From a virus: 43,470 bases of DNA. The stretch's first letter is position 1; each line of letters opens with the position of its first letter. The stretch is from the IMG/VR virus record IMGVR_UViG_3300035180_000278, positions 1 through 43,470 of that record, one strand, 5' to 3'. Both the position numbers and the translations under genes were made by a program. Of the stretch, positions 3,185 to 27,976 are shown piece after piece. The notes beneath the pieces were generated by a model. That model did not search any database and had not been told where the DNA came from. It worked only from the letters and a program-made list of their open reading frames with translations.

Positions 3185-3212
3185 GGATAGCTCCAATTAT
3201 ATGGAGCTATCC
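3185..3212 (-). promoter_or_regulatory. Hairpin occluding the tail fibre ribosome-binding site
   Basis: A perfect inverted repeat of 10 bases (GGATAGCTCC / GGAGCTATCC) surrounds an 8-base AT loop. The 3' arm on the transcript contains the GGAG that is the only good SD for the tail fibre ATG eight bases on. There is no U-run, so it is not a standard terminator. Read-through RNA would fold and hide the SD. Confidence 0.75.
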
Positions 3213-3243
3213 TACACACTCAATTCAGAGATACGCATACCTA
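3209..3243 (-). promoter_or_regulatory. Candidate late promoter, copy 5 (tail fibre and lysis genes)
   Basis: On the minus strand TAGGTATGCGTATCTCT is followed by 12 bases and TAGGAT. The initial TAG is the stop codon of the 2525-residue gene. A start about 7 bases after the hexamer would fall near 3202, inside the hairpin loop. Confidence 0.65.
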
Positions 3244-6200
3244 ACGCTTGAAGCCGAAGGCCAACGCCGCTGGGTTTCCTGTCTCACCATCGGCCAGCGC
3301 ATTGGCACCTGTTATGGTTCGATTAACCTGGGCACTAGGTAGACCTGTCACATCGCCCATCAGGTTAATAGCTGTCTTACGGAAGGCGTCATCAAACTCA
3401 CCCTGATGCACTTGCTTTGCAAACTTCCCAGCGTCACTAATCAAACGCAAACCAGCAGGTCCTGCATAGTCACGCGCTTTGTCATCGGTGCCCGTTACCA
3501 TTTTTGCAGCTTCACCAAATTCACGCACTACCACCATCAAACCCATGAGGTAGTCCAGTTGTGCGTTGATGAGCTTTTGTGCCAGGTTTTCATCATCGTC
3601 ACCGTCGCCACTCGGCACCAGTGCTTGCTTCAGCATCATGCCCAATACCGCTGGCACGGTGTACAGCATGAGGTACTTCGCGGCCAGTTTACCCTTGCTT
3701 TTCTCGGTCATGGTGGCCGTGACCCCCAAGTTGAATGCCGTATTCATGAAAGAATAAAACACGGTGAACAGTTTTTGTGCAGGGCCGCCGCGCTCGATGG
3801 CCGACTGATCCTTTAATTCACCGCCACCTTGGCTATCAATCACGGCCTGGTCGGCCAATGCAATCGCACGCTCGTCGTTATCTTCCTGAGCCAGGGCCTT
3901 GTTGTAGGCACCCAGCCAGGTGGGCACGTCGACCACGCTTTGCATTTGCATCATCAGGAAATAGGTAGATCCCTTAACCGCGCCCATGGCCGCACTTTCG
4001 TCCTGCACTTTGTTGCGCAGCTCGTTCAATTCACGGAAGCGAGTGCGCGCACGGTTCTCCATAAACTCAGACATCTCACTCACCTTGCGCTTGGCAGCCA
4101 TCGGGTTAGCCGTGTACTCGGCAATGCCCTGCCCTATCCACTTAGGACCCACATGCACGATAGATTGGTTAAACCCAGTGATCTGCATCGCTGCCGACAC
4201 CACGTTGAAGCCCAGACCTGATGCGCTGATACCTTGGCGCAATCTACCCAGTGCCTTGTCAACACCCTGTGCCGTACCGCCGTCGCCTTCGGCAATTGCC
4301 TCAGACCATGTTTTAAGTTGGCGCTTAAAATCAGGACCATACTGGCTACGGATGGCCGTGTCGATACTCTGTGATTTTAGTAACCGATTAGAATCAATCA
4401 ACCACTCATGCCATGCCAGGTCGTGAATAACCTCGTTCACACCTGAGTACAAACCTGACAGGGTGTAAAGCAATGGTCTACCATTCACCTCTTCCACGCG
4501 ACCCTTGGTAAAACTGCGACGGGTGGTGGCCGTGGTGTAGGCACCCTGTAGCTGGCGCTTTGCCGCTTCGGCGTCGTTGTGTTCTTCGGCACGTTGGCTT
4601 GCCATTGGGTCAAACTTAACCGGGTAGTAGCCACCGCGCATTGACACCATGGTGCCGTCGGCAGCCTTGATGTCGAATGGTTTGTGCTCAATCCACTCGG
4701 GTTCTTTGCCGTAGACATTGCGCTCTTTCTTGGCGATCAATGGGCGATAGCTTTCGAAGTGATCCCATACCTGTTGCACCGCATTCCACTCGGCAGGGGT
4801 CAGTGTTTCCAACACCGGCATAATTTGCTCAATGGTCCAGCCTTCGCCACCGAGTAAGCGCTGCATATTGCTTTCGTTACCCACGTTCAGTGCCATGGCA
4901 ATGCGCGCTTCGCGGTTCAGACTGCGATCGATTGATGCAAAGTATTGGCCCTTACCACCCATCTTGCCCTGCTTGAACACCGGCGCCATGATCTTGGTCA
5001 GTGCAATTGTTGCCTCTGCACGCTTTGTTGTTTCCCATGACGAGCGCTCATTGGCAGGTTGCAGCAGATACTTCCACACGGTGCCGCCATCTTTGCCGCC
5101 ATCCAACACCCTGATAATTGTCGAGGCTTTAATGTGCGCAGCAAAGAAAGTCTTTAACCCTTGAATCGCTCTGCCGGTGTTGGTTGTTGGGGTGCGCATG
5201 TCCGCTGTACGGCCATCAGCATGTTCATTAATGCTGGCCACCATTTCATCACGCACGGCCTCATACGCACGTTGATCTTTAGCGGTGAGTAGTCGGTTCT
5301 TTAAACGGCCCAGGTGTTCGATCTGTTTGACAGAATCAACCAGACCTCTGAATTCCTCGACCGTCATTTCCTTATACGATTGACGGTTGGCTTCATTCTG
5401 CAATGCTTCAGGAATATCAGGCGCCAAGCCTTCCAGTTCTTTCGCAGCCAACCATGCTGCCAGTGACTTGCGCTTGTCGATAGTCTTGAGTGAGGTTGAC
5501 TTACGCAGGTCGAAGCGATCCAGAAGTGCATCGATCTGGTCAGTATAGTCAGGGTCTATGCTCTTGCGCGAGCTGTCCTTGTCAAACTTCTTGAAGTAAT
5601 CGATACCCTTCTCAACTTCTTCTTTTGCATCATAGGCGGCACGCGCCATCATGGTATTCAATACCTGGTTGCGCTTTTCAGCTAAAGCCGCAGCGATGTC
5701 GCCTTTACGGTGAGCCTCAGCCGACGCCTTGGCCGCACGCACTTCGGCGCCAGTGTAGAGTGATGGCTTGATGTTGCGGATCTTGAGCCGTGCGATGCTT
5801 GCCTCGGCAAACATCTTGGCAGCCTTGGCCAGAATGGGTTGCTTACCTAAGCCCTTGGCCATAGTATTGGCTTCGGTCAGCAGCACCTTTTCACGCGCAC
5901 GGTTGTGAATAACCTGATCAGCAGCACGACTGATTGCTTCCGGTGATGACAGATCACCGTGCCCCTCGAGCATACGTGCATCGGTCAGGTTCTCGATAAC
6001 ATCAGTGGGTGCATCGGCAGCGGCAACGGCACGCACCAACGCGTCACCCGATGTGAAGCCTGGGATAATTTCAGATAGCACATCGGGGTTGATACCGTTG
6101 GGCGACACCATCCGGTTCGTATTCAGCTTTTCAATAACCTCAGCCGGTAGATCCATGGCCTTCAGATCACCCAGGTCAAGACGCCCGGCGTGTACTGAGG

Positions 6201-12590: not shown

Positions 12591-13129
12591 TATGTAGTAA
12601 TTCCCGATGTACTAGATCTACCGGTGTTCATCATGTACCACTGCGCGCCCACCTTGCCAGCATTGCCTATCAGCGACCCGGCGGCAGACAACCCCGGGTT
12701 GATGTTCCCGGCGGCGGCGTTGTTCAGGGCAGAGGTTGTTTGCATGTTGGATGATTGGGTGCGATAGCCCCAGGCTTGTGCGATAGCATTGGTCTCAGTG
12801 GTGATGGCGTCTTGTTCACCCATTACGTCGGTGGTGGTGAGTACGTTGATGGCCGAATCACTGTCGAGTGCAATGCCGTTGGCGGCCAGGCCGACGCGCT
12901 GTGCGCTCTTAACTTGAGCCGTGTGCATACGCACACCCTGCACGGCACGTTCGCCTTGTACAAGTGCGGTTTGTGCAGAGCCTTCAGCGATGCGTGCGTT
13001 AATGTCAGCAATGCGCGCCTGAAATTCAAGCGATGAGCGCTGGCCAGCAGCAGAGAAGTAGGTGCCTATGGCACCACTCACTGCACCATAGGCCATGAGG
13101 CCGACTGAAGCCTTGCCGTATCCGTCCAT
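12590..13129 (-). CDS. Internal virion protein, pore-type (gp14-like)
   Basis: The product has 179 residues. It begins with a Gly/Ala-rich weakly hydrophobic stretch (ASVGLMAYGAVSGAIGTYFSAAG), then a helical region (EFQARIADINARIAEGSAQ) and another small-residue segment near the end (GLSAAGSLIGNAGKVGAQW). This layout is usual for the first internal virion protein of podoviruses, which enters the outer membrane during ejection. An SD AGGGGG precedes the ATG by 8 bases. It is the first gene after late-promoter copy 4, and its TAA overlaps the next ATG. Confidence 0.75.
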   Translation of the reverse strand: MDGYGKASVGLMAYGAVSGAIGTYFSAAGQRSSLEFQARIADINARIAEGSAQTALVQGERAVQGVRMHTAQVKSAQRVGLAANGIALDSDSAINVLTTTDVMGEQDAITTETNAIAQAWGYRTQSSNMQTTSALNNAAAGNINPGLSAAGSLIGNAGKVGAQWYMMNTGRSSTSGITT

Positions 13130-13155
13130 CCGATGACCCCCTAAAATATACCGCT

Positions 13156-13190
13156 ACGATACTGTGTTATTTAAGAGATACGCATACCTA
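13156..13190 (-). promoter_or_regulatory. Candidate late promoter, copy 4 (ejection genes)
   Basis: Minus strand TAGGTATGCGTATCTCT, 12 bases, then TATCGT. Its TAG is the stop codon of the nozzle gene. The start would fall near 13149, giving a short leader before the 179-residue gene. Confidence 0.65.
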
Positions 13191-15856: not shown

Positions 15857-15867
15857 ACGCTACCCCT

Positions 15868-15900
15868 AAAAAATAGGGGTCAAGGTTCCCCCTGACCCCT
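15868..15900 (-). terminator. Rho-independent terminator or attenuator after the capsid genes
   Basis: On the minus strand AGGGGTCA and TGACCCCT form an 8-bp stem with a 10-base loop, followed by ATTTTTT. It lies after the capsid genes and before the adaptor. No late-promoter element lies between it and the adaptor, so partial read-through must feed the tail genes. Confidence 0.8.
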
Positions 15901-15932
15901 TAAAACTGCCTTACAGCAGGACGAGGAACAAC

Positions 15933-16100
15933 TTAAACTAGATCAGATCCAGACTTCTTGACGCCCTTTGCTTCTTGCTTGTCATCGACAAGCTCGAGAT
16001 TGGCAGACGGTTCGCCGTCGTATTCAACGATCTCGCCTTCCTCAACGATACGATTGACAATGTAAGACTTCTCGAGCACTCTGAATTTGCGCATGGCCAT
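15933..16100 (-). CDS. Small acidic head-module protein
   Basis: A 55-residue protein that starts MAMRKFRVLEKSYIVN. The ATG at 16098-16100 has AGAGG eight bases upstream. The segment EEGEIVEYDGEPSANLELVD resembles short proteins (..PGEVVEYDG..NLE..) found next to capsid genes in many phages, often thought to be head-associated. The C-terminus is Lys-rich. It sits between the cement protein and the terminator. Function unknown, but the pattern is recurrent enough to accept it as a gene. Confidence 0.75.
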   Translation of the reverse strand: MAMRKFRVLEKSYIVNRIVEEGEIVEYDGEPSANLELVDDKQEAKGVKKSGSDLV

Positions 16101-16127
16101 GATAAATACCTCTTTAATAAATAGGGA

Positions 16128-16145
16128 GGTGGGCCGTAGCCCACC
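16128..16145 (-). other. Intergenic hairpin with a UACG tetraloop
   Basis: GGTGGGC-TACG-GCCCACC on the minus strand is a perfect 7-bp stem closed by C-G around UACG, an extra-stable tetraloop. No U-run follows. It probably protects the 3' end of capsid mRNA from exonucleases. Confidence 0.6.
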
Positions 16146-16151
16146 AGGTTA

Positions 16152-16586
16152 TTACGTCACTGAAAAGCCTGAAGCGTAGAACTTCTTGCCATCTTGCAGA
16201 TCGTGCGTGATTGCCGAGCTGTAAGTGCCTGAAGTTGTTGTCGTACCTACGATCGTGTACTGCACACCAAGGTAACGCTGACCAGTTGAACCTGCGCGAG
16301 CATTCAAACGCACTATCACGTTGGTGTTAATTGGCAATGATGCGATGGCAATCGCGCCAGATGTACCAATAATGGTAGGTGTACTCAGGGCGGCAGAAGC
16401 AGAAGTAATCACCTGAAATTCAACAGATGTGGGTGTTGTTGGTGCAGCTTCCACGTTGAAGTTAAAGTACAGGTTTTCACCTTCGCCAATGTCCTTGGCT
16501 TGAGACAGGTCGATCGTATCGGTAGATACAGCCGTTACGGTCACTACCTGTGATGTAGATACTTGAAGCAATTTGTCGATAATCAT
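16152..16586 (-). CDS. Capsid cement/decoration protein (Bbp16-like)
   Basis: The 144-residue protein is Thr/Ser/Ala/Val-rich and all-beta in appearance, starting MIIDKLLQVSTSQVVTVTAV with DTIDLSQAKDIGEGENLYF and RYLGVQYTIVG. This matches the Bbp16-type cement proteins encoded directly after the major capsid gene in BPP-1-like phages, which clamp capsomers on the shell surface. SD AAGGAG is eight bases before the ATG. Position next to the capsid gene supports the call. Confidence 0.85.
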   Translation of the reverse strand: MIIDKLLQVSTSQVVTVTAVSTDTIDLSQAKDIGEGENLYFNFNVEAAPTTPTSVEFQVITSASAALSTPTIIGTSGAIAIASLPINTNVIVRLNARAGSTGQRYLGVQYTIVGTTTTSGTYSSAITHDLQDGKKFYASGFSVT

Positions 16587-16641
16587 TTTTAAATCTCCTT
16601 AAAGTTTGCAGGGGTCCAGGTTTACCCTGGGCCGCTAGTCA

Positions 16642-17667
16642 TTACGTCACTTTGGTTTCTGTGTTTAACAGTGCATCGACACGACGCAATGGAACACCGA
16701 GGAAACTCAACCATGATGTTGGTGTACCAAACTGTGTCAGGCCTTGCTCAATCTTCAACACGTACTGTGACTTGTCCATTGCAGCGATTGCCAGACCTGA
16801 GTGAACGGTGCGGTTCATGTAGAACGCAGCACGACCCATGCTCATGTTAGGAATGCGATACAACGCACGCGCCATCAGCTTGACGATGTTGGTGGAGGCA
16901 GACGCAGTTTGTGTAGTTGCTTGAGCCAACAGATCTGCAACCTTGATGTTCGCAATACGAACAACATAGCGCCAGTCTTTAACCACCAGACCATTTTTCC
17001 ACTGGTAACGAGTGGCCAATGCCTGCATACGTGTACCGTCAGGGTTGTAAACAGTTTGCTCACCCAGGTCGTCATGGATCAAGCCAGCGCTTGAGCCTTT
17101 AGGGAATGGGCAGAATACAGTTTGATCACCCCAAACAACCAACCATACGGAAGCGTTGGTCGCCGCAGCGTCACCACCAGCATCTAGGATATTCTGTGCG
17201 TTACCGGCGCCTGAGATTGCTGAGTAACGTGAAGCCAGCCCCAAGAACTGCTTAGGGTCGATGGCTGGGTTACCGTAGAACAATGTTGTAGCTTGTGTCT
17301 GGTTCATCGCTTCGATGAATGCGCTATCTTCAGACAGACGGAAGGCAGCCGTGTTGCCGTTAAGCATGGCCAGATCTTTGTCCACCTCAGAGCGTGCTTC
17401 CAAAATACCGCAAGCCTCATCAACCTGAGCAGTTGTGCTCTTTGAGTTTGGGATACCTTGGTTAAGAGCACGCCAGTAAACTGTCGGCAAACCAGTACGG
17501 ATCACAACACGGTGACCAGTTGGCAGGTTGCCTTCAGCAAATACAGCGTCATCAAGAATTTCGTTAGACTGTGATAATAGTTCTGCCACGACGGGCGCAG
17601 TACCATCAGGATCTACACGTTTAGCCCAATCGGCCAGCGTTAAGTTTGTTGCTAATAGTGTTGCCAT
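16642..17667 (-). CDS. Major capsid protein (Bbp17-like)
   Basis: This 341-residue shell protein starts MATLLATNLTLADWAKRVDP. Segments such as LPTGHRVVIRTGLPTVYWRALN, EARSEVDKDLAMLNGN and NPAIDPKQFLGLASRY are typical of the BPP-1 major capsid family, which has an HK97-like fold in a variant topology. A strong SD (AAGGAG) precedes the ATG. Scaffold lies upstream and cement protein downstream. The end (RRVDALLNTETKVT) is complete, and the length fits the family. Confidence 0.93.
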   Translation of the reverse strand: MATLLATNLTLADWAKRVDPDGTAPVVAELLSQSNEILDDAVFAEGNLPTGHRVVIRTGLPTVYWRALNQGIPNSKSTTAQVDEACGILEARSEVDKDLAMLNGNTAAFRLSEDSAFIEAMNQTQATTLFYGNPAIDPKQFLGLASRYSAISGAGNAQNILDAGGDAAATNASVWLVVWGDQTVFCPFPKGSSAGLIHDDLGEQTVYNPDGTRMQALATRYQWKNGLVVKDWRYVVRIANIKVADLLAQATTQTASASTNIVKLMARALYRIPNMSMGRAAFYMNRTVHSGLAIAAMDKSQYVLKIEQGLTQFGTPTSWLSFLGVPLRRVDALLNTETKVT

Positions 17668-17744
17668 GTCATTTACTCCTTCAGCGCCTCGCGGCGTTAG
17701 TTATTAAGGTGCCCAGCGCATCACTGCGTTAGGGCGTTGAACAT

Positions 17745-18419
17745 CTACTGCTTTGCTGGGTAGAGGGAATTCGCATAATCGTTGTTGCTTTTAGCGATAG
17801 GTTTACCGCCTTGGCCCGATTGCACAAAATTGTCCTCACTGATTGCCTTGCCCGCTCTGTACATCATCCTGATTAATTCGGGGTGATTGCCAAGACCAGA
17901 CTCGTTTAACAGCGTGCGCAGTTCGGGTGAGCCGAATTGTTCCAGGGCCTTCTTTGCTATGGCCATGTTTTCATTCAGCTTGTCACCACCAAATTCCTTA
18001 TCAGACTTTGAGGTGTCAGCCCATTCAGTACGTGCCGCCTCGAGTGCCTTGCTCTGCTTTTCAGCGAGGGCCGGGGCAATCTTGTCGATCACTTTCTGCG
18101 CAGCTTCCTGGGTCATGTTTAGTTCTTTGGCGACTTCAGAGAATTGGGCCAACACTTCAGGCGAGAATTCTTTGCCTTCAGGTGGTACAAACTCATACTT
18201 TTCAGGGGCACCCGTCGGTGCCGCTTTATCGCCTTCAGCTTTCGTACCTTCAGACTTATCGCCCTCGGTAGTTTGACCTTCGGTTGCTTGCTGGCTTGAT
18301 GCTCCCGGTGTTGTTGCCGCAGGAGTTCCACCTACGGGTGCAGCACTGGTTGCATCAGGTGATGAGGCGGTACCTTGAGTGGTATTGTCAGTTCCCGTCA
18401 TCAGTGTTTCTGTTGTCAT
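17745..18419 (-). CDS. Scaffolding protein
   Basis: The 224-residue product has a disordered N-terminal half rich in Thr, Ala, Gly and Glu (TEGQTTEGDKSEGTKAEGDK), then a helical half (LAQFSEVAKELNMTQEAAQKVIDK, then RTLLNESGLGNHPELIRMMYRAGKAI). The pattern PE(L/I)...LG..HP....M...GKAI is common at the end of phage scaffolds. It directly precedes the major capsid gene. The start has SD AAAGGAA seven bases upstream and overlaps the end of the Bbp19-like gene by 32 bases. It would guide shell assembly and then leave the head. Confidence 0.88.
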   Translation of the reverse strand: MTTETLMTGTDNTTQGTASSPDATSAAPVGGTPAATTPGASSQQATEGQTTEGDKSEGTKAEGDKAAPTGAPEKYEFVPPEGKEFSPEVLAQFSEVAKELNMTQEAAQKVIDKIAPALAEKQSKALEAARTEWADTSKSDKEFGGDKLNENMAIAKKALEQFGSPELRTLLNESGLGNHPELIRMMYRAGKAISEDNFVQSGQGGKPIAKSNNDYANSLYPAKQ

Positions 18420-18723
18420 TATTCGTTTCCTTTATCATCACTGGATACAGCTCAGGGCATAACGCGTGAACCAGCGCCAGTGTACGGAGGCCATCGTTTC
18501 TATTACCTTCCGCAAATGCCATTTGCATTGCGTTGGTATTAAACGACAGACGAAATACACCTGCCCGTTCCAGATGGCGCCAGATAATCCGACGCCCCCG
18601 TTTGCTACCCATGAGCCACTTAATATCAGCCTCTTCGGTTTCGCGGGAGACGCGCTCAGCAGTTTGTTTCTGCGCCTTTGTGCGTTCAATACCTGCTAGA
18701 TCTAGGGGGTCGTGGTTGCTCAT
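18388..18723 (-). CDS. Bbp19-like head-module protein
   Basis: A protein of 111 residues from the ATG at 18721-18723 (an ATG two codons earlier is possible). The region DIKWLMGSKRGRRIIWRHLE, then AGVFRLSF and a C-terminal ALCPELYPVMIKE, matches the small conserved proteins called Bbp19-like that precede the scaffold gene in many podoviruses. Its exact role is not known to me. It is the first gene after late-promoter copy 3; the predicted start of transcription falls at or near the ATG at 18723, and no SD is evident, so it may be read leaderless. Confidence 0.8.
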   Translation of the reverse strand: MSNHDPLDLAGIERTKAQKQTAERVSRETEEADIKWLMGSKRGRRIIWRHLERAGVFRLSFNTNAMQMAFAEGNRNDGLRTLALVHALCPELYPVMIKETNNDNRNTDDGN

Positions 18724-18729
18724 GCGCAT

Positions 18730-18764
18730 AATTTACACGATCCATTAAGAGATACGCACACCTA
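18730..18764 (-). promoter_or_regulatory. Candidate late promoter, copy 3 (head genes)
   Basis: Minus strand TAGGTGTGCGTATCTCT, 12 bases, then TAAATT. Its TAG is the stop codon of the tandem-repeat gene. The predicted start is about 18723, the first base of the preferred ATG of the Bbp19-like gene. Confidence 0.65.
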
Positions 18765-19280
18765 GGCGCGACGGCGGCGACGTATCATGGATATGGGTAG
18801 AGATATGGCTACAGATTGACCACTTTGGACTACGTTAGGCGACAGTCCGACCAGGCTTATGGATCTGTTAATTGGCAACAAATAAACATTGCTTGTTCGT
18901 GCTACCGTTGGCGCATAACCTGTAATTGCTAGTGTTCCAGCAGACGGAGTCAGTGCCTTTGGTTGAAGTATTGCAGGGGCATAGCCTATTATTGCAACTG
19001 AACCAACCGCCGGGGTTAGCGCCTTTGGTTGTAGAATACTTGGAGCATAGCCTGTTAATGCAAGGCTTCCGACTGTCGGTGTTACTGTATAAGGTTGCGC
19101 AACTACAGGTGCATATCCGGTGAGTGATAGCGTACCAACAGCGGGGTTTATAGGGGTATCAACTACACTACTGGACTGCGAGATAGTTGGAGCGTAACCC
19201 GTAAGCGCAAGACTACCGACAGCTGGATTGACTGAGGTATTAGATACACCGCTACCCGTGAGTGCGAGTAGTAAGCTCAT
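18762..19280 (-). CDS. Tandem GYAP-repeat structural protein
   Basis: This 172-residue protein is built from about five copies of a 22-27-residue unit of the form P.VGSLALTGYAP.I.Q, with GYAP at residues 28, 55, 77, 99 and 121 and a degenerate copy GLSP near 145. The C-terminus is a basic cluster (SMIRRRRRA). Beta-strand-like repeats with conserved GYAP turns suggest a fibrous or surface-decorating protein. Proteins with (V)GSLxLTGYAPT repeats occur in phage head regions, but I do not know a demonstrated function. It follows the 480-residue protein by three bases and probably shares its message. Confidence 0.75.
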   Translation of the reverse strand: MSLLLALTGSGVSNTSVNPAVGSLALTGYAPTISQSSSVVDTPINPAVGTLSLTGYAPVVAQPYTVTPTVGSLALTGYAPSILQPKALTPAVGSVAIIGYAPAILQPKALTPSAGTLAITGYAPTVARTSNVYLLPINRSISLVGLSPNVVQSGQSVAISLPISMIRRRRRA

Positions 19281-19283
19281 TTA

Positions 19284-20723
19284 TTACTCGAAGAAGTGAT
19301 CTACGCTAACAGTTATTGCTAAAGCACCAAGAGTAGTCACTGTCCCAAGGTTACGACAAGTGATAGCAAAGTATTCACCTGGGTTTACAACTAACGGTGA
19401 TAGGAATTGCATCCATATACTAGGCACACCAATACCGGCAGCAGCAGTTACCACGAAGTCGAAGTTACCAAGTGGTACTCTTCGAGGGGCTTTAGTTGTA
19501 GCCGTTACAAATGAACCTGTTTCTACTGTCGCTAAAGACAAGGCTGTATGCCCGAAGGCAGCGCCCATAACTAAAGTTAGCGGCCCACCAGTTAAAGCAG
19601 TTTGCACACTGGCAAATATACGAATACCTTGCACTACTAATGTCTTAGGTGGTTGTGTTACTGAGCCGACTGGATTTTGATAACTCAGTAGAATACCATC
19701 TGTACCAGAGGTTAGTGTTGGAAGGACAAGAACCACACCACCAAGACCGATGTTACCGGCAGCAGCAGTCGTGTTAGTTAATGCAGCAGCAGCAGCAACA
19801 GCGGCGTTAGAATACATTGCTAGTGAGCCTTGCGTATCACCGTCTTGCCCTTGATAAGCATCCCCTTGCATAGCTTTTTGAATTGACCAATCCTTAGTAG
19901 CTGCAAGATCAGTCATTGTCACATGTAACGTACCAATCTTTGTAGTGAAGCCACCTGTTACTGTACCTGAGTTACGCATCATTAAACAAACTGGCAAGTT
20001 CATACTTAGATAGGGGACTGCGTTACCGCTTGGTACTGCCATATAACCATAAAGAGTACCGTCAACCCAGTACTCCACTCTTCGCTGTGAGATAATAATT
20101 TGGAAGCTGGCTACTGATCCGACTGTAAGCGAAGCAATCAATACACCAGTGGAAGTTTCTACACCGTTGTAAGTCATAATTCCAGCTAAACCCGCCGAAC
20201 TTAATCTCCAGAAACATCCATCAGTAGGTGCAACACCCGCAGTACCTAAGAATAATCCAGCTTCAAGGAGTTGGTTGGCGGGAGGAGCTGCACTAATAAG
20301 CCCCGTAAACTCTATGTTTAAAGAACCATCACCTTGCAAAGTATGGTGTTTCCATGTTTGCATGTAAGTATAGTTACCTGAAACAGTAGATAAAGCGGGG
20401 TTGATGTTTAAGAATCCAGCAGACTGCGAACTGGTCATTGTAGCGGCTGCGTATTTCCAATCGCCCGTGTTTTGAGCTGTAGTTGTAAAGTTATACAGAC
20501 TCAGCATGGTATCGATACCCACTGAAAGCCTGCTATCCTCGCCAACATGCGGAGTTCTAACCAAAGGAGTACCTGTTATTGCCCCTGAATCCATTCTTGA
20601 TTGAATAGAAGCGAAGCCAGCCTGAGTCGTTACGACAGGTAGGTTCACATTCAGGTTATAGGTAGAGTCTACGTTTGGACTACCTGCCGTGCTTGAACCA
20701 CCTTCAATTTTAATACCTGCCAT
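19284..20723 (-). CDS. Virion structural protein, beta-rich (unassigned)
   Basis: The ATG at 20721-20723 has SD AAGGAG seven bases upstream and gives 479 residues starting MAGIKIEGGSSTAGSPNVDS; an ORF start twelve codons earlier lies inside the upstream gene and is rejected. The N-terminal segment (GSPNVDSTYNLNVNLPVVTTQAGFA) resembles phage head or neck structural proteins; the middle has a lectin/laminin-like beta domain (WKHHTLQGDGSLNIEFTG ... RRVEYWVDGTLYGY). It lies among small head-associated genes. A host-binding or capsid-decorating fibre is plausible from the composition, but no family is certain. Confidence 0.7.
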   Translation of the reverse strand: MAGIKIEGGSSTAGSPNVDSTYNLNVNLPVVTTQAGFASIQSRMDSGAITGTPLVRTPHVGEDSRLSVGIDTMLSLYNFTTTAQNTGDWKYAAATMTSSQSAGFLNINPALSTVSGNYTYMQTWKHHTLQGDGSLNIEFTGLISAAPPANQLLEAGLFLGTAGVAPTDGCFWRLSSAGLAGIMTYNGVETSTGVLIASLTVGSVASFQIIISQRRVEYWVDGTLYGYMAVPSGNAVPYLSMNLPVCLMMRNSGTVTGGFTTKIGTLHVTMTDLAATKDWSIQKAMQGDAYQGQDGDTQGSLAMYSNAAVAAAAALTNTTAAAGNIGLGGVVLVLPTLTSGTDGILLSYQNPVGSVTQPPKTLVVQGIRIFASVQTALTGGPLTLVMGAAFGHTALSLATVETGSFVTATTKAPRRVPLGNFDFVVTAAAGIGVPSIWMQFLSPLVVNPGEYFAITCRNLGTVTTLGALAITVSVDHFFE

Positions 20724-20734
20724 TTTATTACTCC

Positions 20735-21028
20735 TTAGTCTGCAAATACCCACCGACATGCAATCGTGCCAGTAAGTTGTAATGTTGAAATTGCTTCTGC
20801 ATCGAAGGCATTCGCACTTTTTGCTGTAGCGTATGCGCCAAAATTCAATGCACCTATTAAGCGATGTTCTTGTGCGTTATGTGTCGCAGTTGAATCTGTG
20901 CCATCAATGTAAATCTCAAGGTTACTTGTGGCACTTAGTCCGGTAGCTGTGACTCCGGTTAAAGTTGCACGAGTTGAACCCTTGCCAGTACCAAAATCAA
21001 ATGTGCATGTTCCTTGACCCGTTGCCAT
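20735..21028 (-). CDS. Small virion-associated protein (unassigned)
   Basis: A protein of 97 residues starting MATGQGTCTFDFGTGKGSTR. The pattern (T.TFDFG..PG...A...VTG) followed by an EIYIDGTD segment is common in short phage structural proteins placed between portal and capsid genes. Its ATG shares a base with the stop of the next upstream gene (TAATG). It has no membrane segment or enzyme motif. Function unknown. Confidence 0.7.
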   Translation of the reverse strand: MATGQGTCTFDFGTGKGSTRATLTGVTATGLSATSNLEIYIDGTDSTATHNAQEHRLIGALNFGAYATAKSANAFDAEAISTLQLTGTIACRWVFAD

Positions 21029-21501
21029 TAAGTCGCGCTCAAGATACCTGACGCGTTCATCGTGACGGTCAGCGTATTAGGTGCAGAAGTCAGTGGAACG
21101 TCAGCAGGGGTTGAATCGCCCAAGGCATAACATACCAGCGGATTAACTTTACCGTTCAGTGTGCCAAGGTAGTAGATCACCATATAACGCCATGCAGGTA
21201 TTCCCGTACCGTCAGCAGTCCATACCTGTGCGGCCGATGTAAATTTAACCACGCCACCGGTTTGATTAAGAACCACTGTGCCGAGTGTTGCGCCACCAGC
21301 AACATAAGCAGTCTGACCCGCTGTAGCGATTTCATTCGCTGAAATAGTAGCCCATACCTCGTCAGTTGTTGGGGCGGGTGTCCATGTACTCTTGACGAGT
21401 GCAAGACGATAGTTAGCTGAACCTGTTTTTAAGAGTGCAGTTGCACCCTCGAACATGTTTAACTTTGCGATTTGTGGAAACGTCCATGCGCCTGCAGCCA
21501 T
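21028..21501 (-). CDS. Structural protein, beta-rich (unassigned)
   Basis: The 157-residue product starts MAAGAWTFPQIAKLNMFEGA and contains YRLALVKSTWTPAPTTDEVWATISANEI, a pattern typical of phage structural proteins (..ALV....TP..T.D..WA.IS..E...). The rest is beta-rich with Thr and Val. SD AAGGGG precedes the ATG. Genes of this type sit between portal and capsid genes, and may encode minor head or fibre-base proteins. Role not known. Confidence 0.7.
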   Translation of the reverse strand: MAAGAWTFPQIAKLNMFEGATALLKTGSANYRLALVKSTWTPAPTTDEVWATISANEIATAGQTAYVAGGATLGTVVLNQTGGVVKFTSAAQVWTADGTGIPAWRYMVIYYLGTLNGKVNPLVCYALGDSTPADVPLTSAPNTLTVTMNASGILSAT

Positions 21502-21511
21502 GATTTACCCC

Positions 21512-21988
21512 TTATCCCAACATCTTTGCAGCTTGGGCTTTCAGCTTGTTGATTTTACCTTCCAGGTCAGCGGCTTCAGCCATGAGTGATGCAACATTGG
21601 CATTGGCCGTTGTTACCTTAGCCACTGCATCACCAATGATCTGGCTGGCTTCTTTGGTCTTTTCATCATGGATACGATTAGCCTCATCCACAATCTTGTT
21701 AGCCTCGATCACTGCGTCGTTCATCATTGCGTCGCGCATGGCGACGGACTCATCCTTGTACTTGGCGGCCAGATCCTTGGCCACTTTGACTGCAACCTTA
21801 CCCACGGCCATATCAGTCTCAACGGTTGCCAGTTCTTTACGTGCAGCTTCCAGACCCTTCGTGGCTTCCTTTTCAGCTTGCACCAGGCTACCCACTTTAG
21901 CGAAGGCGTCGGCCACGGTTTGTATCGCTGAGAAGCCTGCGAGTAATCGATTGGCATCATCGGCAGCTTTTAAATATTCATTACTCAT
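21512..21988 (-). CDS. Coiled-coil structural protein (unassigned)
   Basis: This 158-residue protein is almost all helical, rich in Ala, Lys and Glu, with long heptad-like runs (EATKGLEAARKELATVETDM and later NANVASLMAEAADLEGKINK). There is no membrane segment. SD AAGGAG is seven bases before the ATG. Its place in the head block suggests a structural or scaffold-like role, but this composition is not diagnostic. Confidence 0.65.
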   Translation of the reverse strand: MSNEYLKAADDANRLLAGFSAIQTVADAFAKVGSLVQAEKEATKGLEAARKELATVETDMAVGKVAVKVAKDLAAKYKDESVAMRDAMMNDAVIEANKIVDEANRIHDEKTKEASQIIGDAVAKVTTANANVASLMAEAADLEGKINKLKAQAAKMLG

Positions 21989-21992
21989 AGTG

Positions 21993-22340
21993 TTACTCCT
22001 TCATTAAAATTAAGCAGGTCAAGTTCGTTGTGCCGTCGCCAGCAGTCACGCGTGGGCGCACATACATGGTGGCCTCTGAAACCATTTCGATCTTGGCCGC
22101 AGTGATGGCCAGGTTATTGCCCTGTGGATCTGTGAGCACTGACCAGTTAATGCCGTCGTTGCTACCTTCAACGGCCAGACTGCCACCCACACCAAACACA
22201 CCAAACACTTGCACCGATTTATCGGTGTACTGTGCGCAGGCAATGGGTGCACCATCGTCCCCGTTACCTATGCCGTCCCACTCACGTATGAAGGCCACTG
22301 TCGTGCCTGTTGATTGGTTGATACCTGCTACTGTTGCCAT
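21993..22340 (-). CDS. Small beta-sandwich-like head protein (unassigned)
   Basis: The product has 115 residues starting MATVAGINQSTGTTVAFIRE. The core (QVFGVFGVGGSLAVEGSNDGINW, then YVRPRVTAGDGTTNLTCLI) resembles the small beta proteins with a (V.G..GGS..V.GSNDG..W..L) pattern found in many phage head modules. SD AAGGAG precedes the ATG. It could decorate the capsid. No named family is certain. Confidence 0.7.
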   Translation of the reverse strand: MATVAGINQSTGTTVAFIREWDGIGNGDDGAPIACAQYTDKSVQVFGVFGVGGSLAVEGSNDGINWSVLTDPQGNNLAITAAKIEMVSEATMYVRPRVTAGDGTTNLTCLILMKE

Positions 22341-22342
22341 GA

Positions 22343-22657
22343 TCAGTCTCCTTTTCCGTATAACATATTTGCTGCATTGTTCATTACGCCAGCAATACTC
22401 ACTGACATATCCGTAATCTGTAACTGCAATCGCACATCATTACCTGCATCGTCGCCGTCTTTTTCAAGAGATTCGGTGGCACTGGTAACCACGGCTATTG
22501 CGCTGATGCTTACCTTGCTACCTGCGGCCATGGTTTTTAAAATACCCAGCGCTTCACACTGGTCTTCATCGATGTAGAGCATCAAACCACCCGGGTAGTT
22601 GTTACCAGGTATGTTGCCCTCATCACAGTCGCATTTCATGTTGATTAGTTGTGCCAT
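22343..22657 (-). CDS. Capsid staple-type protein
   Basis: A protein of 104 residues. The layout is an N-terminal polar region, then YPGGLMLYIDEDQCEALGI, GSKVSISAIAVVTSATE, an acidic stretch, and VRLQLQITDMSVS. The pattern (YP.GL.L.L....L..LGI ... V...A.A.V......... L.LQITDM) matches the small proteins annotated as capsid staple proteins next to phage portals. The ATG shares its A with the portal stop (TAATG). Binding across capsomers is inferred from the family. Confidence 0.7.
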   Translation of the reverse strand: MAQLINMKCDCDEGNIPGNNYPGGLMLYIDEDQCEALGILKTMAAGSKVSISAIAVVTSATESLEKDGDDAGNDVRLQLQITDMSVSIAGVMNNAANMLYGKGD

Positions 22658-24324
22658 TATGTGTACCCGCTGAATGCTTTAGTTACGTCGGTTAGTGCTG
22701 TCTGACCCCCGGTTGGTGCGGTGGCCAGGTTCTTTACTGCTTGTGATTTTTGCAAGGCTTGATCTGTCTGTGCCTGTTGTTGTGCTTGATCGCTGCGTTG
22801 CTTGCGTATGAGTGCAACCTGATCACCCGGCACCACCAGTTGCGGATCAACACCCAGCATGTCGGCATAGGCATCAGCCCATTCATCACTGTTAAACTTG
22901 TCGAGCACATCAGGCTTGAATTGGGCCACGGCACCCAAGCTATTGACATAGCGATCGATGGAATTAGTACCTACTGCGCGCTGTGCCTGGGCCAACATGG
23001 AAACGAATTCAACATTGAGGTCATGGCCTTGCAGCTCTTTGGGCGGTGGTGGCAATACACCCGCTTCGACCATGCGTGAGAAGGTCATGTTGATCAGCGG
23101 ATCCAGCAGCTCATTGTGCAAGCGCTCGAGCACTGGCCCCAACATCAGCAGCTTTTCTTCGTGACGCTCGGCCACTTCGGTGGCAGTCATGCGCGCGTCA
23201 GTCTGGTTGGCCAGCATTAGAAACAGGTCAGCGTAGAATGATCCTTTGATACGCTCGCGCACGTCCTGGATATCTTGCAGCAAGTGGTTAAGATCCAGGT
23301 TAACGTCGAACGCAGTCTTAATACCACCGGTGCCGGCTGTATCCACAAAACTAATACCACCCGGCAAGCGCTCGATGTCGCGACCCTTCATGCTGAGTGG
23401 CACCTGCAATGGCGGATTAGTCTTGTAATCGATACCCTGCGCCTTGCGTAGTTGTTCATGTTGCAGTTGTTTGATGTCGCCCAGCGCTTCCATGCCTGGC
23501 GAGTTGCCATAGACGTCACCACCAGATACAGCCCATCGTGGTACTACCGCAGGGAATTCTTTAAAGCCTGACTCACGCAGATACTTGCCACGCTCACCAC
23601 CTTGCTCAAAGTAAACTGATGACCATGCCATGTTTTTGGCGTCTTTCATCTTGTGGTCACGATCGGCACGCGGTTCAATTGCATGGATGATGGTTATCCA
23701 CTGTTCCAGGCTGCCGCGTGTGTAGAGACTCTGCACGGTCGTGGAGCAATTCTCATAGCCAAACTCACCCACCAGCTCATGCACTGTCTTTTGGAACTCG
23801 CGATATAGGGTTGATACCTGGCCACGGTGGTCAGTGGTGATGGCATATTCACCCGTGGTGAGAGGGTAGTGACGAATTACATCTTGATAGTCAGGCAGCA
23901 CGATGGATGCACCGGTGCCGAATGCACCCAGTTCTTCGTACATAGAATGCAGAGATCGATAGGTATTCGACTTGTTGAATATGCTACTCATCAAATGTGT
24001 AACATCCGTTAGCCATAGCTTAACGGGTTGGAACTTGTTTAAATCAGGGTCATTGGTGGCCAGACGAAACCATGGGCGCGCAGGGCTTGTCATGCCACTC
24101 ATCATACCGGCAGCGAGCACACGTAGAGCGCGAGTGCCAGTAGAATCATATATATTGTTGTGTCGTTTTTGTCCACGGTCACGGTCCTGTACGAAGAAGC
24201 GACCAGACCGGGGGAGCAGGTGCATTGATATCTCTTTCCAATGCGGCACCCAGGTGGCGCGCTCGGATTTAAGAGCACCCCAACGGGTAACTAGCTTCTC
24301 GCGTGGTGTGGTTTGATCACTCAT
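22657..24324 (-). CDS. Portal (head-tail connector) protein
   Basis: The 555-residue product starts MSDQTTPREKLVTRWGALKS and contains WKEISMHLLPRSGRF, GTRALRVLAAGMMSGMTSPARPWF and ARMTATEVAERHEEKLLMLG, the signatures of T7-like portals. It forms the dodecameric ring at the packaging vertex, the site for terminase docking and DNA passage. The C-terminal tail is Gln/Ala-rich. Length is typical (T7 gp8 is 536). The start lies three bases after the stop of the small upstream gene, and its stop overlaps the staple gene. Confidence 0.93.
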   Translation of the reverse strand: MSDQTTPREKLVTRWGALKSERATWVPHWKEISMHLLPRSGRFFVQDRDRGQKRHNNIYDSTGTRALRVLAAGMMSGMTSPARPWFRLATNDPDLNKFQPVKLWLTDVTHLMSSIFNKSNTYRSLHSMYEELGAFGTGASIVLPDYQDVIRHYPLTTGEYAITTDHRGQVSTLYREFQKTVHELVGEFGYENCSTTVQSLYTRGSLEQWITIIHAIEPRADRDHKMKDAKNMAWSSVYFEQGGERGKYLRESGFKEFPAVVPRWAVSGGDVYGNSPGMEALGDIKQLQHEQLRKAQGIDYKTNPPLQVPLSMKGRDIERLPGGISFVDTAGTGGIKTAFDVNLDLNHLLQDIQDVRERIKGSFYADLFLMLANQTDARMTATEVAERHEEKLLMLGPVLERLHNELLDPLINMTFSRMVEAGVLPPPPKELQGHDLNVEFVSMLAQAQRAVGTNSIDRYVNSLGAVAQFKPDVLDKFNSDEWADAYADMLGVDPQLVVPGDQVALIRKQRSDQAQQQAQTDQALQKSQAVKNLATAPTGGQTALTDVTKAFSGYT

Positions 24325-24327
24325 TGA

Positions 24328-24627
24328 TTAGCTTCCGAGTAGAGTTGTTTTGCCAATGGGTGCTGGATCAGTGACACCATTTGCACCTGTTAACATCGTG
24401 CCGCCTACCATGGCCGCACGCCTGTTGCTGTCATAGGCAGCAGTGATGTCAGGGCGCTTTTGGTTCTGCTTACCCATGGCAATGTCGGCATTCTTTGCAT
24501 TCAAGTTGGCACGCGCCTCAGCATCCGTGTGTATACGCTCTTGCAGGTCGAGAGCCTTGCGACCCTCAGAAACCTGATATAAAGTGCTCCCTGCAAACAC
24601 ACTAACTCCAATAATCGCCATACTCAT
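24328..24627 (-). CDS. Small virion-type protein with C-terminal GKTTLLG motif
   Basis: A 99-residue protein whose ATG overlaps the previous stop (ATGA at 24624-24627). A small hydrophobic N-terminus (SMAIIGVSVFAGSTLYQV) is followed by a helical charged part and GGTMLTGANGVTDPAPIGKTTLLGS. Proteins of this shape (..GGT.LTG..GV....LGK.TLLG) are common between terminase and portal or tail genes in phages, and are usually virion-associated. The C-terminal P-I-G-K-x-x-L-L-G resembles the end of the 146-residue protein two genes upstream. Confidence 0.7.
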   Translation of the reverse strand: MSMAIIGVSVFAGSTLYQVSEGRKALDLQERIHTDAEARANLNAKNADIAMGKQNQKRPDITAAYDSNRRAAMVGGTMLTGANGVTDPAPIGKTTLLGS

Positions 24628-25049
24628 ACCACACCCCCAATATTCAATATGCGACGACTCGCCAGCTTTTCGCTCTCGCTACTCATTTCGTCCTCAATCT
24701 CTGTCACGTCCGTCTTGCTTGTTGGCCATATCATCGACCACCATGTATCTGCATACGCCAGGCCCACACGCTTGATACCCGCATTGGCCGGTATCACGTT
24801 GAAGCCTGTTAAGCGCTTTGACCCGTCATCCGTGGTCACCACAATGTCACCCTGCACCACGCAGATATTGTCTATGTTCGTTAATGCACCCGTCAGCAAT
24901 GTGCCAGCCGGTATAAAGATGGTTCGTGCACACATGCCGCCGTGTATTACATTCTCAGTTACCAGGTCCACCTGCGGCATGGCCAGCAGTTGATCCTCAA
25001 GATTAGACACCACCATGCTCATGCGCTGGATGTCAGGCAGTGTGAGCAT
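24624..25049 (-). CDS. Unassigned head-module protein, possible cupin-like fold
   Basis: The 141-residue protein has an N-terminal helix (MLTLPDIQRMSMVVSNLEDQ), then a beta-type region (ARTIFIPAGTLLTGALTNIDNICVVQGDIVVTTDDGSKRLTGF) that has the spacing of a cupin barrel, then YADTWWSMIWPTSKTDVTEIEDE. The classic metal-binding histidines of cupins are not clear, so a catalytic role is doubtful. It lies between two small proteins in the terminase-portal interval. Similar phage proteins exist as hypotheticals. Confidence 0.65.
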   Translation of the reverse strand: MLTLPDIQRMSMVVSNLEDQLLAMPQVDLVTENVIHGGMCARTIFIPAGTLLTGALTNIDNICVVQGDIVVTTDDGSKRLTGFNVIPANAGIKRVGLAYADTWWSMIWPTSKTDVTEIEDEMSSESEKLASRRILNIGGVV

Positions 25050-25050
25050 G

Positions 25051-25491
25051 TCAGTTACCCAATATCATATTGCGACCCAATGGGGCCTTGCTACCCAGGC
25101 TTGCATCCGTACCCACGGTCGCATTACCAGCCAATGGGTTTTTGGCAATAGACGTGCTCGATTCAGCAAATGCTCTGAGCTGACCATCATTCGTACCCGA
25201 TGACGTATCAGCCACCTCCTTGTCGGTGCCACGCTGGGCAACTTGGTATTCTGTTACTGGACCAGGGGGGCGCTTGGGTGTTTGGCCTGTCAGATCAAGC
25301 ACCAGGCCAAACACATCTCTACGAAAACCAGACCACGTATTCCCAAGTGAATACTGCGCACCCCTCCATGCTTTATTGAATTCAGGTACGACGGAATCAG
25401 TCACACCAGTGACCGACCCCGCCCCATCCCTCACAGCCTGTTTGGCTGATCCTCTGGCGTTCTTAACAAACTCCGCTATTCCCCAACCCAT
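25051..25491 (-). CDS. Unassigned virion-type protein with C-terminal PLGRNMILG motif
   Basis: A protein of 146 residues starting MGWGIAEFVKNARGSAKQAV, with a mixed polar middle (FRRDVFGLVLDLTGQTPKRPP) and a Gly/Ala-rich tail ending SKAPLGRNMILGN. It is the first gene after late-promoter copy 2, with GGGGGTGG just upstream of the ATG. The end resembles that of the 99-residue protein two genes on, suggesting a shared docking peptide. No domain was recognised. Confidence 0.65.
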   Translation of the reverse strand: MGWGIAEFVKNARGSAKQAVRDGAGSVTGVTDSVVPEFNKAWRGAQYSLGNTWSGFRRDVFGLVLDLTGQTPKRPPGPVTEYQVAQRGTDKEVADTSSGTNDGQLRAFAESSTSIAKNPLAGNATVGTDASLGSKAPLGRNMILGN

Positions 25492-25514
25492 ACCACCCCC
25501 AATTCAATACGTGC

Positions 25515-25549
25515 AATCTACACGTTGAATTCAGAGATACGCATACCTA
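25515..25549 (-). promoter_or_regulatory. Candidate late promoter, copy 2 (portal group)
   Basis: Minus strand TAGGTATGCGTATCTCT, 12 bases, then TAGATT. Its TAG is the terminase stop codon. The predicted start near 25508 gives a short leader containing the SD of the 146-residue gene. Confidence 0.65.
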
Positions 25550-27046
25550 CGCATAAGGGTCATACTCCTTGACCTGTTGCCTTGTGATAGCACGCACATC
25601 GGCAAGCGACGGTGTGTCCATGAGACCGAGCACATAAGCCGAGGCCCAGTCGGGTGATCGACCAATGCGTTTCTCAATGGCGTCGCGCCCTTCGACCTTG
25701 ACCACTGTGCCCTGTAGCTCCCAGGTGGGTGCACACAGGTCGGCACGCAGTCGATTGTCCGGTGGGAGTTGCAGGCCTATGTTGTTGGCTGGGTCCAATG
25801 CCTCCCTGAACTTCCACCATAGCTCACTGCGCTGGTTCAAAAACTTGAGGCGGCCTGACTTGTCACTCGAGGTGGCCTTCTCAGCCACGTTGACACCCAG
25901 CACATGCTGGCCAGCACTCATCAGAAAGTCGTAAGGTGATGAACCCACACCAATTACGTCGAGGTGTATCGGTGCACCATTGCGCATACTGGCAATGACA
26001 AGGCCAGCGACAGTTGGGCCATCAGGTGTTTGTGTACCTGGATAGGCCAGGGCCTCATCGAACCAATTACCATGGCGTCGTGCAATGATCGTGTTATCAC
26101 GCCCACCTCGGGCCACGTCCACACCCATTGATGACATCTTGGGCTTCGGCAGCAGAGGCTTCCAACGGGCCATAGCAGCCTCGACCCACGCAGTTGGTAT
26201 CACTTGCCATGGGTCATCCTCGATACCCGCTTGGAAGTCGCCATAGAGCATTTGTGAGCGTAGTGGTTCAGGTAGTGATTGCAAGGTGGCCATGTATCCG
26301 GTTCCCATTAGGTAAGGGTTATCGCTGACGCGTGAAGGTATGAAGGTGCGAGACATAGGCTTGACCATCTCACCCTTGTGCTCGAAGGGGTCAGGGCCAT
26401 CAGCCTCAACGTCTTTGCCATCGATACTGGCAAACCAGCGCAACTCGCCAGGTTCAGCAGGTACGGGATGCTTGGGATCTAGCCATGGTCCGAAGAAGTC
26501 TATGATCCATCGACCTTCAGCATTGGTGGGTGGGTTGAAGGTGAGTAGAGCCTGGCATCGCTGTCCAATGGTTGTGGTACGCAGCCAGCCGAGTAGGAAG
26601 CGCAGTTGATGCTCCATGAAGTTGGCTGCTTCGTCGAATACCAGCAGATCATGCGGCCGTCCCTGATACTTTGTCTCATCGCCAGGGTTAGGCACCGAGC
26701 CGAACTCAATCTGTACACCGCGATCAGGCAGTCGCCAGATCCTTTCTTGCCCGTTAAAGCCATCACGCCCACCTAATAGCTCAGTAAAACGATCGATAAT
26801 ACCGGTGAGCTGTGTTGCCTCACGTCGCAGTATCATCACACGCTCGTGTTGTGTTAGTGCCTTACCACAGGCCAGATCCGACTTACCACCACCCGCCGCA
26901 CCGCCATAGCCGATGATGTCGGCCTTGGAGTTATAAGCAATTGATTGCGGACCCGGTAGCGGTGACCATGGGTTGCGTCGCTTTAGTTCACGCGCAATGA
27001 GTAATGCCCTGGCTAACTGATCCTTAGACGAGATCTGAGCCGTCAT
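25547..27046 (-). CDS. Terminase large subunit (packaging ATPase-nuclease)
   Basis: The preferred ATG at 27044-27046, with AAGG just upstream, gives 499 residues and overlaps the small subunit by 23 bases; a longer reading frame starts inside that gene without support. Walker A is GYGGAAGGGKSDLACG near residue 47 and Walker B is LLVFDEAAN. The C-terminal RNase H-like nuclease begins at MGVDVARGGRDNTIIARR with its first acidic residue. It cuts and pumps DNA into the procapsid through the portal. Whether packaging is headful or cos-type cannot be read from the sequence. Confidence 0.94.
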   Translation of the reverse strand: MTAQISSKDQLARALLIARELKRRNPWSPLPGPQSIAYNSKADIIGYGGAAGGGKSDLACGKALTQHERVMILRREATQLTGIIDRFTELLGGRDGFNGQERIWRLPDRGVQIEFGSVPNPGDETKYQGRPHDLLVFDEAANFMEHQLRFLLGWLRTTTIGQRCQALLTFNPPTNAEGRWIIDFFGPWLDPKHPVPAEPGELRWFASIDGKDVEADGPDPFEHKGEMVKPMSRTFIPSRVSDNPYLMGTGYMATLQSLPEPLRSQMLYGDFQAGIEDDPWQVIPTAWVEAAMARWKPLLPKPKMSSMGVDVARGGRDNTIIARRHGNWFDEALAYPGTQTPDGPTVAGLVIASMRNGAPIHLDVIGVGSSPYDFLMSAGQHVLGVNVAEKATSSDKSGRLKFLNQRSELWWKFREALDPANNIGLQLPPDNRLRADLCAPTWELQGTVVKVEGRDAIEKRIGRSPDWASAYVLGLMDTPSLADVRAITRQQVKEYDPYA

Positions 27047-27479
27047 CAACCTTGCCCAATACGCCAGCGGCAGTGAGCAGTGCCAACTCGGCACGCATAT
27101 CCGCCTCACTCATATCGCTCAGATCTAACTTGCCCGAGATCTTGAGGTGAGAATTCTCACGATACTTCTCAGGCGCATGAGCCTTGAGTAAGAAGATTGA
27201 CAGCGTATCGCTGTACTTGGTGATGGAGCCACAGGGTGCACCCTGGTGGAATACTGGTTCGTCACTGCCTTCAAACGCACGCCGGTGTGCCTCGTCCTCG
27301 AGTGCTGTGACCCCAACGACCAGGGCCTTATCCCAAGCGGCAGCAAACACTTCGTCAGCAGCTCGCCAGTTGTAGGCCGTCATCCGGGTGATATCAATGG
27401 CCTTGCACGCTTTACCAACGTTGCAAGTCTCTGATAGTACAGCAGTAAATGCCGTTAGTTTTTCAGGTGTCAATTTCAT
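27024..27479 (-). CDS. Terminase small subunit
   Basis: A protein of 151 residues. The N-terminal part has a helix-turn-helix-like segment (CNVGKACKAIDITRMTAYNWR), followed by AHRRAFEGSDEPV, YSDTLSIFLLKAHAPEKYR, which is the typical small terminase signature, and an acidic helical C-terminus. It should recognise the packaging site and recruit the large subunit encoded next. It follows late-promoter copy 1, whose hexamer lies just upstream of the ATG, so the leader would be very short. Confidence 0.9.
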   Translation of the reverse strand: MKLTPEKLTAFTAVLSETCNVGKACKAIDITRMTAYNWRAADEVFAAAWDKALVVGVTALEDEAHRRAFEGSDEPVFHQGAPCGSITKYSDTLSIFLLKAHAPEKYRENSHLKISGKLDLSDMSEADMRAELALLTAAGVLGKVDDGSDLV

Positions 27480-27485
27480 AAGGCC

Positions 27486-27520
27486 ATGCTACTACGTGTT
27501 TTCAGAGTTACGCACACTAA
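27486..27520 (-). promoter_or_regulatory. Candidate late promoter, copy 1 (terminase)
   Basis: Minus strand TTAGTGTGCGTAACTCT, 12 bases, then TAGCAT. This is the least conserved copy and lies within the last codons of the HTH gene rather than starting at its stop. The predicted start near 27479 coincides with the small terminase ATG. Confidence 0.55.
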
Positions 27521-27737: not shown

Positions 27738-27777
27738 TTTTATCCCCTCACAATTCGCCGGTTGTTGCATGTATAAA

Positions 27778-27972: not shown

Positions 27973-27976
27973 ACCC

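Follow-up and report, generated by a model that had tools for sequence, protein, structure and literature searches.

In phage T4, middle promoters keep the −10 element of σ70 promoters and carry, in place of the −35 element, a MotA box centred at −30 (PMC2988021). Here we describe five repeated elements of comparable layout in a virus record of 43,470 bases (IMGVR_UViG_3300035180_000278; 'the window' denotes this whole stretch), and propose that they are probably late promoters activated by an 81-residue helix-turn-helix (HTH) protein of the bbp27 family working with host σ70 RNA polymerase. As with MotA/AsiA, a phage site replaces the −35 element (here at −38 to −28, with no −35 box), the −10 is kept (TAnnnT at −12 to −7) and a small phage protein is linked to the site, which in our case it would bind. 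The sites themselves are unlike in sequence, however, the genes concerned are predicted to be late, and the protein consists of one HTH plus an N-terminal arm. MotA had no match among the HTH family or the early open reading frames (ORFs) scanned, and AsiA had none among the window proteins scanned, where a small unrelated co-activator would not be recognisable by sequence.

Mu Mor/C and P2 Ogr do a similar job, in that one early phage protein turns on several late promoters, but their protein families and types of site differ from those considered here. A Pfam scan of 46 members of the HTH family matched 25 families, among which the Mor domain (PF08765) did not figure, its one weak match (E 0.07) being confined to Caulobacter phage Jess A; no match to the Ogr zinc-finger domain was found in the family, nor was there a conserved cysteine cluster. 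The lambda Q system serves one late promoter with readthrough, whereas the window has five separate elements at five borders. No T7-type RNA polymerase gene was found among the main window proteins scanned, of which the 491-residue protein encoded at 19284-20759 could be assigned to no family. Phage-encoded activators of late promoters are already known, and judged from sequence the present ones would form a new family, marked by an unusually small protein, by a specificity rule that can be read and by transcripts predicted to be leaderless.

The minus strand of the window carries head, portal, terminase, ejection and tail-fibre genes, and the plus strand carries recombination, polymerase, helicase and integrase genes. 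Its portal protein shares 69% identity with the Bordetella phage BPP-1 portal, 74% with that of phage zth2-2 and 55% with that of Jess A; the window represents a temperate podophage of BPP-1 type. At each late-operon border lies one minus-strand element of the form GTRTGCGTAWCTCTKAA-N9-TAnnnT. A first-pass annotation, made from the letters alone, had placed copies or close forms of a 17-mer at these five positions, ahead of the tail fibre/lysis, ejection, head, portal and terminase groups, each followed after exactly 12 bases by a TAnnnT hexamer, and these readings were borne out. The 17-mer TAGGTATGCGTATCTCT is exact at three positions and has one mismatch at a fourth (18748-18764), all on the minus strand, against 0.07 matches expected by chance in dinucleotide shuffles; the copy at 27504-27520, TTAGTGTGCGTAACTCT, has four mismatches to the 17-mer and retains the core. 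The hexamer stands at the same distance in 5/5. The pattern GT[AG]TGCGTA[AT]CTCT[GT]AA-N9-TAnnnT matches the window at exactly these five places, all on the minus strand, and was found 0 times in 200 Markov simulations. The elements and the genes that they are predicted to drive are as follows.

3209-3243, minus strand: late element 1, with site TAGGTATGCGTATCTCT at 3227-3243 and −10 TAGGAT at 3209-3214; predicted +1 at 3202 and a 20-nucleotide leader to the tail-fibre gene start at 3182; would drive the tail fibre and lysis genes.
13156-13190, minus strand: late element 2, with the site at 13174-13190 and −10 TATCGT at 13156-13161; predicted +1 at 13149 and a 20-nucleotide leader with AGGGGG to a start at 13129; would drive the internal virion/ejection genes.
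18730-18764, minus strand: late element 3, with the site at 18748-18764 and −10 TAAATT at 18730-18735; predicted +1 at 18723, on the first base of the start codon (ATGAGC) of the bbp19 homologue (leaderless); would drive the head genes.
25515-25549, minus strand: late element 4, with the site at 25533-25549 and −10 TAGATT at 25515-25520; predicted +1 at 25508 and a 17-nucleotide leader with GGGGG to a start at 25491; would drive the portal group.
27486-27520, minus strand: late element 5, with the site at 27504-27520 and −10 TAGCAT at 27486-27491; the element falls within the HTH gene's 3' end, and the predicted +1 (27479) coincides with the A of the terminase small subunit's ATG (leaderless).
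18388-18723, minus strand: bbp19 homologue, first gene of the head operon, with a predicted leaderless start (ATGAGC) at 18723.
27024-27479, minus strand: terminase small subunit, predicted to be leaderless.
27492-27737 (stop included; codons 27495-27737), minus strand: 81-residue HTH protein of the bbp27 family, the predicted late activator.

The upstream gene takes its stop codon from the leading TAG in four of the five copies, as the annotation had also noticed (ORF ends at 3241, 13188, 18762 and 25547), and the fifth falls within the last codons of the HTH gene. The −35 position holds TGCGTA, which agrees with TTGACA at 2 of 6 positions, in keeping with the earlier remark that the two are unlike. 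A σ70 consensus scan of 12800-31000, covering four elements (the 3227 site lies outside), called none of them and found no −35 box at them; it called divergent σ70 promoters between the cro-like and cI-like genes (30412-30547). We set aside a sixth near match at 38038-38049, which reads GCGTATCCCT and is without GTR upstream, though it has TATAAATT downstream. Late-strand matches to a looser pattern at about 40799 and about 16544 were read as chance, because up to two per strand arise in simulations.

To search relatives for the motif had been proposed as a check on the promoter family, and the outcome depends on how literally the letters are taken. The 17-mer itself, with up to three mismatches allowed, had no match in relatives outside the window; the literal motif is therefore private to this genome, and a search of relatives with the five copies finds nothing. 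A diverged form, GTRnnCRTR-N17-TAnnnT, is shared at the matching borders of BPP-1, Limnohabitans DC33 and dozens of environmental relatives, with 208 late-strand and 10 other-strand matches in all loci fetched at that stage. The gap from GTRnnCRTR to TAnnnT was 17 in 208 matches, 16 in 8 and 18 in 2; most other gaps had 0-12 matches, 44 fell at gap 22 (24 of them also with a hexamer at 17) and 21, unexplained, at gap 9. The element letters are similar inside one genome and different among genomes.

BPP-1 has GGGTGCCCGTGCCYC at the homologous borders with identical spacing to TAnnnT, the element letters being GTGCCCGTGCC in BPP-1 versus GTATGCGTATC in the window. There, GGGTGCCCGTGCCTC precedes bbp9 and bbp19 and GGGTGCCCGTGCCCC precedes bbp24, each with TAnnnT at equal distance; upstream of BPP-1 terS no element was found, the three elements of that genome lying elsewhere. 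The annotation had not recognised the element from described phages: it is present in BPP-1 all the same, and apparently undescribed there: in the open literature searched, the coverage of which left out the first BPP-1 genome paper, neither late promoters nor a late activator are described for BPP-1-like phages. Jess A, read by eye, has GTGCGCATG at three borders with weaker −10s (TAAATA, GATACA and TAAAAA) at equal distance. An unsupervised search for 14-mers at a fixed distance from TAnnnT, with at most two mismatches within one genome, brought out families of this kind in about 20 relatives, on the late strand; looking for repeated k-mers alone was of no use, the coding composition of G+C-rich genomes swamping the output. 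No late-strand element was found in Epsilon15, Vibrio 1.021, BcepC6B, Carin1 or CP2, distant relatives without the HTH gene. The bbp9 promoter of BPP-1 (6130-6180) lies within a hairpin resembling an intrinsic terminator (CCCCTGGGGAAG ... CTTCCCCAGGGG TTTTT), of which the 5' arm abuts the −10 hexamer and the loop holds it, so that the terminator of the upstream unit and the promoter of the next overlap.

The positions of the start codons bear on where transcription would begin. At the border of the bbp19 homologue, among 51 distinct loci with strict elements, the start codon lies 5-7 nucleotides past the hexamer in 49 (41 at exactly 6); of the other two, one is at 10 and the second is the window, logged at 0, where an upstream ATG had been picked, and at 6 if ATGAGC is used. 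With the hexamer at −12 to −7, six further nucleotides put the start codon at +1. To avoid circularity, only the start codon served as anchor in an alignment of 54 regions upstream of bbp19 (<80% identical), with no motif imposed, and GGTnCnCGTA emerged at −39 to −30 and TA.ATT at −12 to −7. Among 152 distinct elements, 54 have ATG at offset 6 and 18 at offset 7; offsets of 25-27 form another cluster (25 counts), matching leaders of about 20 nucleotides. In the window homologue the start is predicted at 18723; an earlier ATG, the first in the ORF (18729), would precede +1. We infer that transcription starts on the start codon at the head border throughout the group and at the terminase border in the window, giving leaderless mRNAs; the three window borders with a leader carry GGAG or GGGGG. 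In a few relatives (L021, L028) the site at the bbp19 border is mutated to GTTGCTAGTT, with the −10 position and a GTG/TTG start unmoved; the stretches covered in these relatives do not take in the regulator gene.

When all window ORFs are compared with BPP-1, DC33, zth2-2 and Jess A, just one recognised non-structural protein is common to the five genomes: the HTH protein. Its gene is the last of the early leftward operon, directly before terminase, and BPP-1 bbp27 is a direct homologue in the equivalent place (48% identity over 63 residues). Querying 50,697 phage records with the zth2-2 protein gave 13 matches, the same records whose portals are 55-74% identical; the BPP-1 protein adds weak partial matches in five unrelated phages. 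Pseudomonas phage C171 (Autographiviridae) was placed outside the group, its HTH match being only partial, as was BcepC6B gp01, which also precedes terS and is a different protein, in a phage without such elements. The HTH gene adjoins terS on the same strand in 90 of the 90 loci that hold both. Of the adequately covered loci, 42 have the HTH gene, and 41 of these carry at least one element; four lack the gene, and three of these four have no element.

An AlphaFold2 model of the protein (confidence 85-89 in the HTH, 71 overall) has an arm strand at residues 3-8 and helices at 26-37, 42-49 and 53-60, the last being the recognition helix, into which residues 57-58 fall; in the window the specificity residue is D58 and the arm GYRIG occupies residues 12-16. 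The nearest folds are the DNA-binding domains of GcrA, Hin, IstA and Tc3, which are tied. GcrA, a σ70 co-activator of Caulobacter, works with σ70 and reads methylated GANTC. It shares a small HTH domain with our protein and was the top fold match by a narrow, tied margin (Z 6.8, root-mean-square deviation 2.8 over 46 residues), and one member of the family has a weak GcrA Pfam match; unlike GcrA sites, the window elements contain no GANTC, and the likeness in fold does not set GcrA apart from the other matches. The Hin/resolvase DNA-binding domains are alike in fold (Z 6.0-6.7, root-mean-square deviation 1.8-2.6 over 44-46 residues) and in layout, with a helix in the major groove and an N-terminal arm in the minor groove along the neighbouring half, but our protein is without a recombinase catalytic domain and would be used at promoters. 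What Pfam matches the family has (HTH_38, the resolvase HTH_7, Sleeping Beauty HTH) are generic as well as weak, and H19 is its only invariant residue. In RefSeq, bbp27 (26337-26573 in BPP-1) is labelled 'endonuclease', perhaps from the likeness of its HTH to the C-terminal part of an HNH endonuclease (phrog_6156, positions 178-226); no nuclease motif was matched in bbp27.

Covariation ties this protein to the letters of the element. We used 54 representatives with HTH proteins <90% identical and 929 columns from five proteins (HTH, TerL, portal, TerS and bbp19). The best predictor of element position 5 among all 929 columns is HTH residue 58, with a mutual information of 1.18 of 1.55 bits: K58, the residue of BPP-1, goes with C in 16 of 17 cases, and D, S, G or C with G in 22 of 22. 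The window conforms to the traits of the bbp27 group, with its HTH gene before terS on the late strand and D58 matched to G at position 5. The top column for position 3 is HTH residue 57, and for positions 10 and 11 it is arm residue 12 (L12 in BPP-1, Y13 in the window); positions 4, 7 and 9 show little variation, and their top columns come from proteins other than the HTH. Because this arm residue covaries with positions 10-11, a layout with the arm on the neighbouring half of the site is suggested. The 6-bp direct repeat GTATGC GTATCT could also be read as two HTH copies side by side, a reading we rejected as the main one because residue 58 covaries with position 5, and position 11 with the arm residue.

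Relatedness among the phages was allowed for by an independent-pairs test on a TerL and portal tree with the HTH gene left out. Position 5 changes 13 times on this tree. When G is set against A/C, the residue class is concordant in 8-9 of 9 supported independent pairs and opposite in 0 (p 0.004-0.008); for C against A/G, most pairings have 6 of 6 following K (median p 0.03). Between position 3 and residue 57, about 5 of 7 pairs are concordant and none opposite, and the arm-residue pairs on this tree are too few for significance. The change of letter in step with protein extends to sister taxa (L121/L169 and L002/L007). We fixed the residue-58/position-5 rule before new loci were fetched, and it was right in 4 of the 5 new loci with strict elements; L195 and L200, whose bbp19 border was read by eye, agree with it.

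We therefore offer the following model. The elements would be host σ70 promoters in which a site for the phage protein replaces the −35 box. The HTH protein would bind GTRTGCGTAWC at about −38 to −28, residues 57-58 of its recognition helix reading the first half (GTRnnC) in the major groove and the GYRIG arm reading the second half. It would also touch RNA polymerase, probably at σ region 4 or the β flap, and σ region 2 would then melt the TAnnnT −10, fixed 17 bp downstream. Once made, the protein would switch on the five late operons jointly, the first of them beginning at the 3' end of its own gene, with transcripts at the head and terminase borders starting on the A of the start codon and the other three having leaders of 17-20 nucleotides. 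A promoter with an implied activator, and this HTH protein as the candidate for it, had been suggested by the first-pass annotation; fixed −10 spacing, restriction to the late strand, conserved borders, co-occurrence and base-residue covariation together lend that suggestion strong comparative support, with binding of the site well supported by sequence and activation and start sites predicted. A broader version, in which an HTH monomer stands in for σ region 4 at all late promoters across the group, the residue-58 code drifts with the sites, and head and terminase transcripts are leaderless, is possible and on balance rather doubtful.

Several observations weigh against the model. A at position 5 is found alongside a variety of residues (R, K, M, A, N, Y and G), many of the new loci have no strict-pattern element, and the one miss among them, L203, has H at residue 58, which is outside the rule. 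One adequately covered locus (L033) has an element and no HTH gene in its stretch, and another (L093) has the HTH gene with only a variant site. The structural matches are modest (Z <7, Foldseek E >0.1). Moreover, an operator overlapping the −35 would give equal covariation and co-occurrence, and small phage HTH proteins are often repressors, so the protein might instead repress late promoters that are weak or otherwise driven, with the element as its operator. We think this unlikely and favour activation, because the 17-bp spacing is invariant (208 matches against 8 at 16 and 2 at 18), which an operator does not need, because no −35 box is left for polymerase, and because the gene closes the early operon, just ahead of the late genes, the usual place of activators or antiterminators.

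The −10-like hexamer at every site would also suit a host alternative σ factor, or σ70 alone acting on a weak −10; as the HTH gene adjoins the terminase genes, its protein might then covary through a role in packaging or DNA bending. This seems more improbable still: a host factor would not explain why element letters vary in step with the phage protein, even between sister taxa, and the elements lie upstream of genes in one direction only. That the repeats are recombination or module-boundary sequences kept by cassette exchange, as their place at module borders and frequent start in a stop codon might suggest, is scarcely credible, given that they are alike within a genome and different between genomes and that such sequences have no place for a fixed-distance −10 or for start codons at the +1 position.

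Other features of the window lie between and beside the late operons. Genes for proteins of 172 and 491 residues (18762-20759) sit between the portal-side genes and the head border; they have no PHROGs family, no convincing Pfam match and no counterpart in the four relatives compared, and are likely to be inserted cargo. A strong terminator-like hairpin at 15875-15900 (AGGGGTCAGG...CCTTGACCCCT ATTTTTT) lies within the head operon directly before the bbp14/bbp13 homologues, and BPP-1 also has a hairpin in the gap before bbp14/bbp13. The gap between the primase-helicase gene and the HTH gene (27774-27970) holds at least eight iteron copies, AGGTGTACTAG / CTAGTACACC, in both orientations, 9-10 bases apart within clusters, with two 28-nucleotide arms that are 93% complementary; the matching gap of BPP-1 has different iterons (TTGCCTCGT). 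A replication origin is the probable identity of this region in the window.

Work on diversity-generating retroelements has BPP-1 as its model phage. The late genes of BPP-1 would include the tropism genes, mtd lying downstream of the bbp9-border element, and the literature searched gave no account of how these late genes are turned on. The comparison names a candidate regulator for BPP-1, bbp27, together with three sites and a residue-to-base rule, and the whole set of virus-assembly genes is probably switched on by a single small protein. The group thereby offers a natural set of small activator/promoter pairs of differing specificity, in which the co-change of regulator and site may be followed and which may supply orthogonal parts. 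If the predicted starts are right, leaderless mRNAs of the head operon across the group would be an unusual case of leaderless translation for structural genes.

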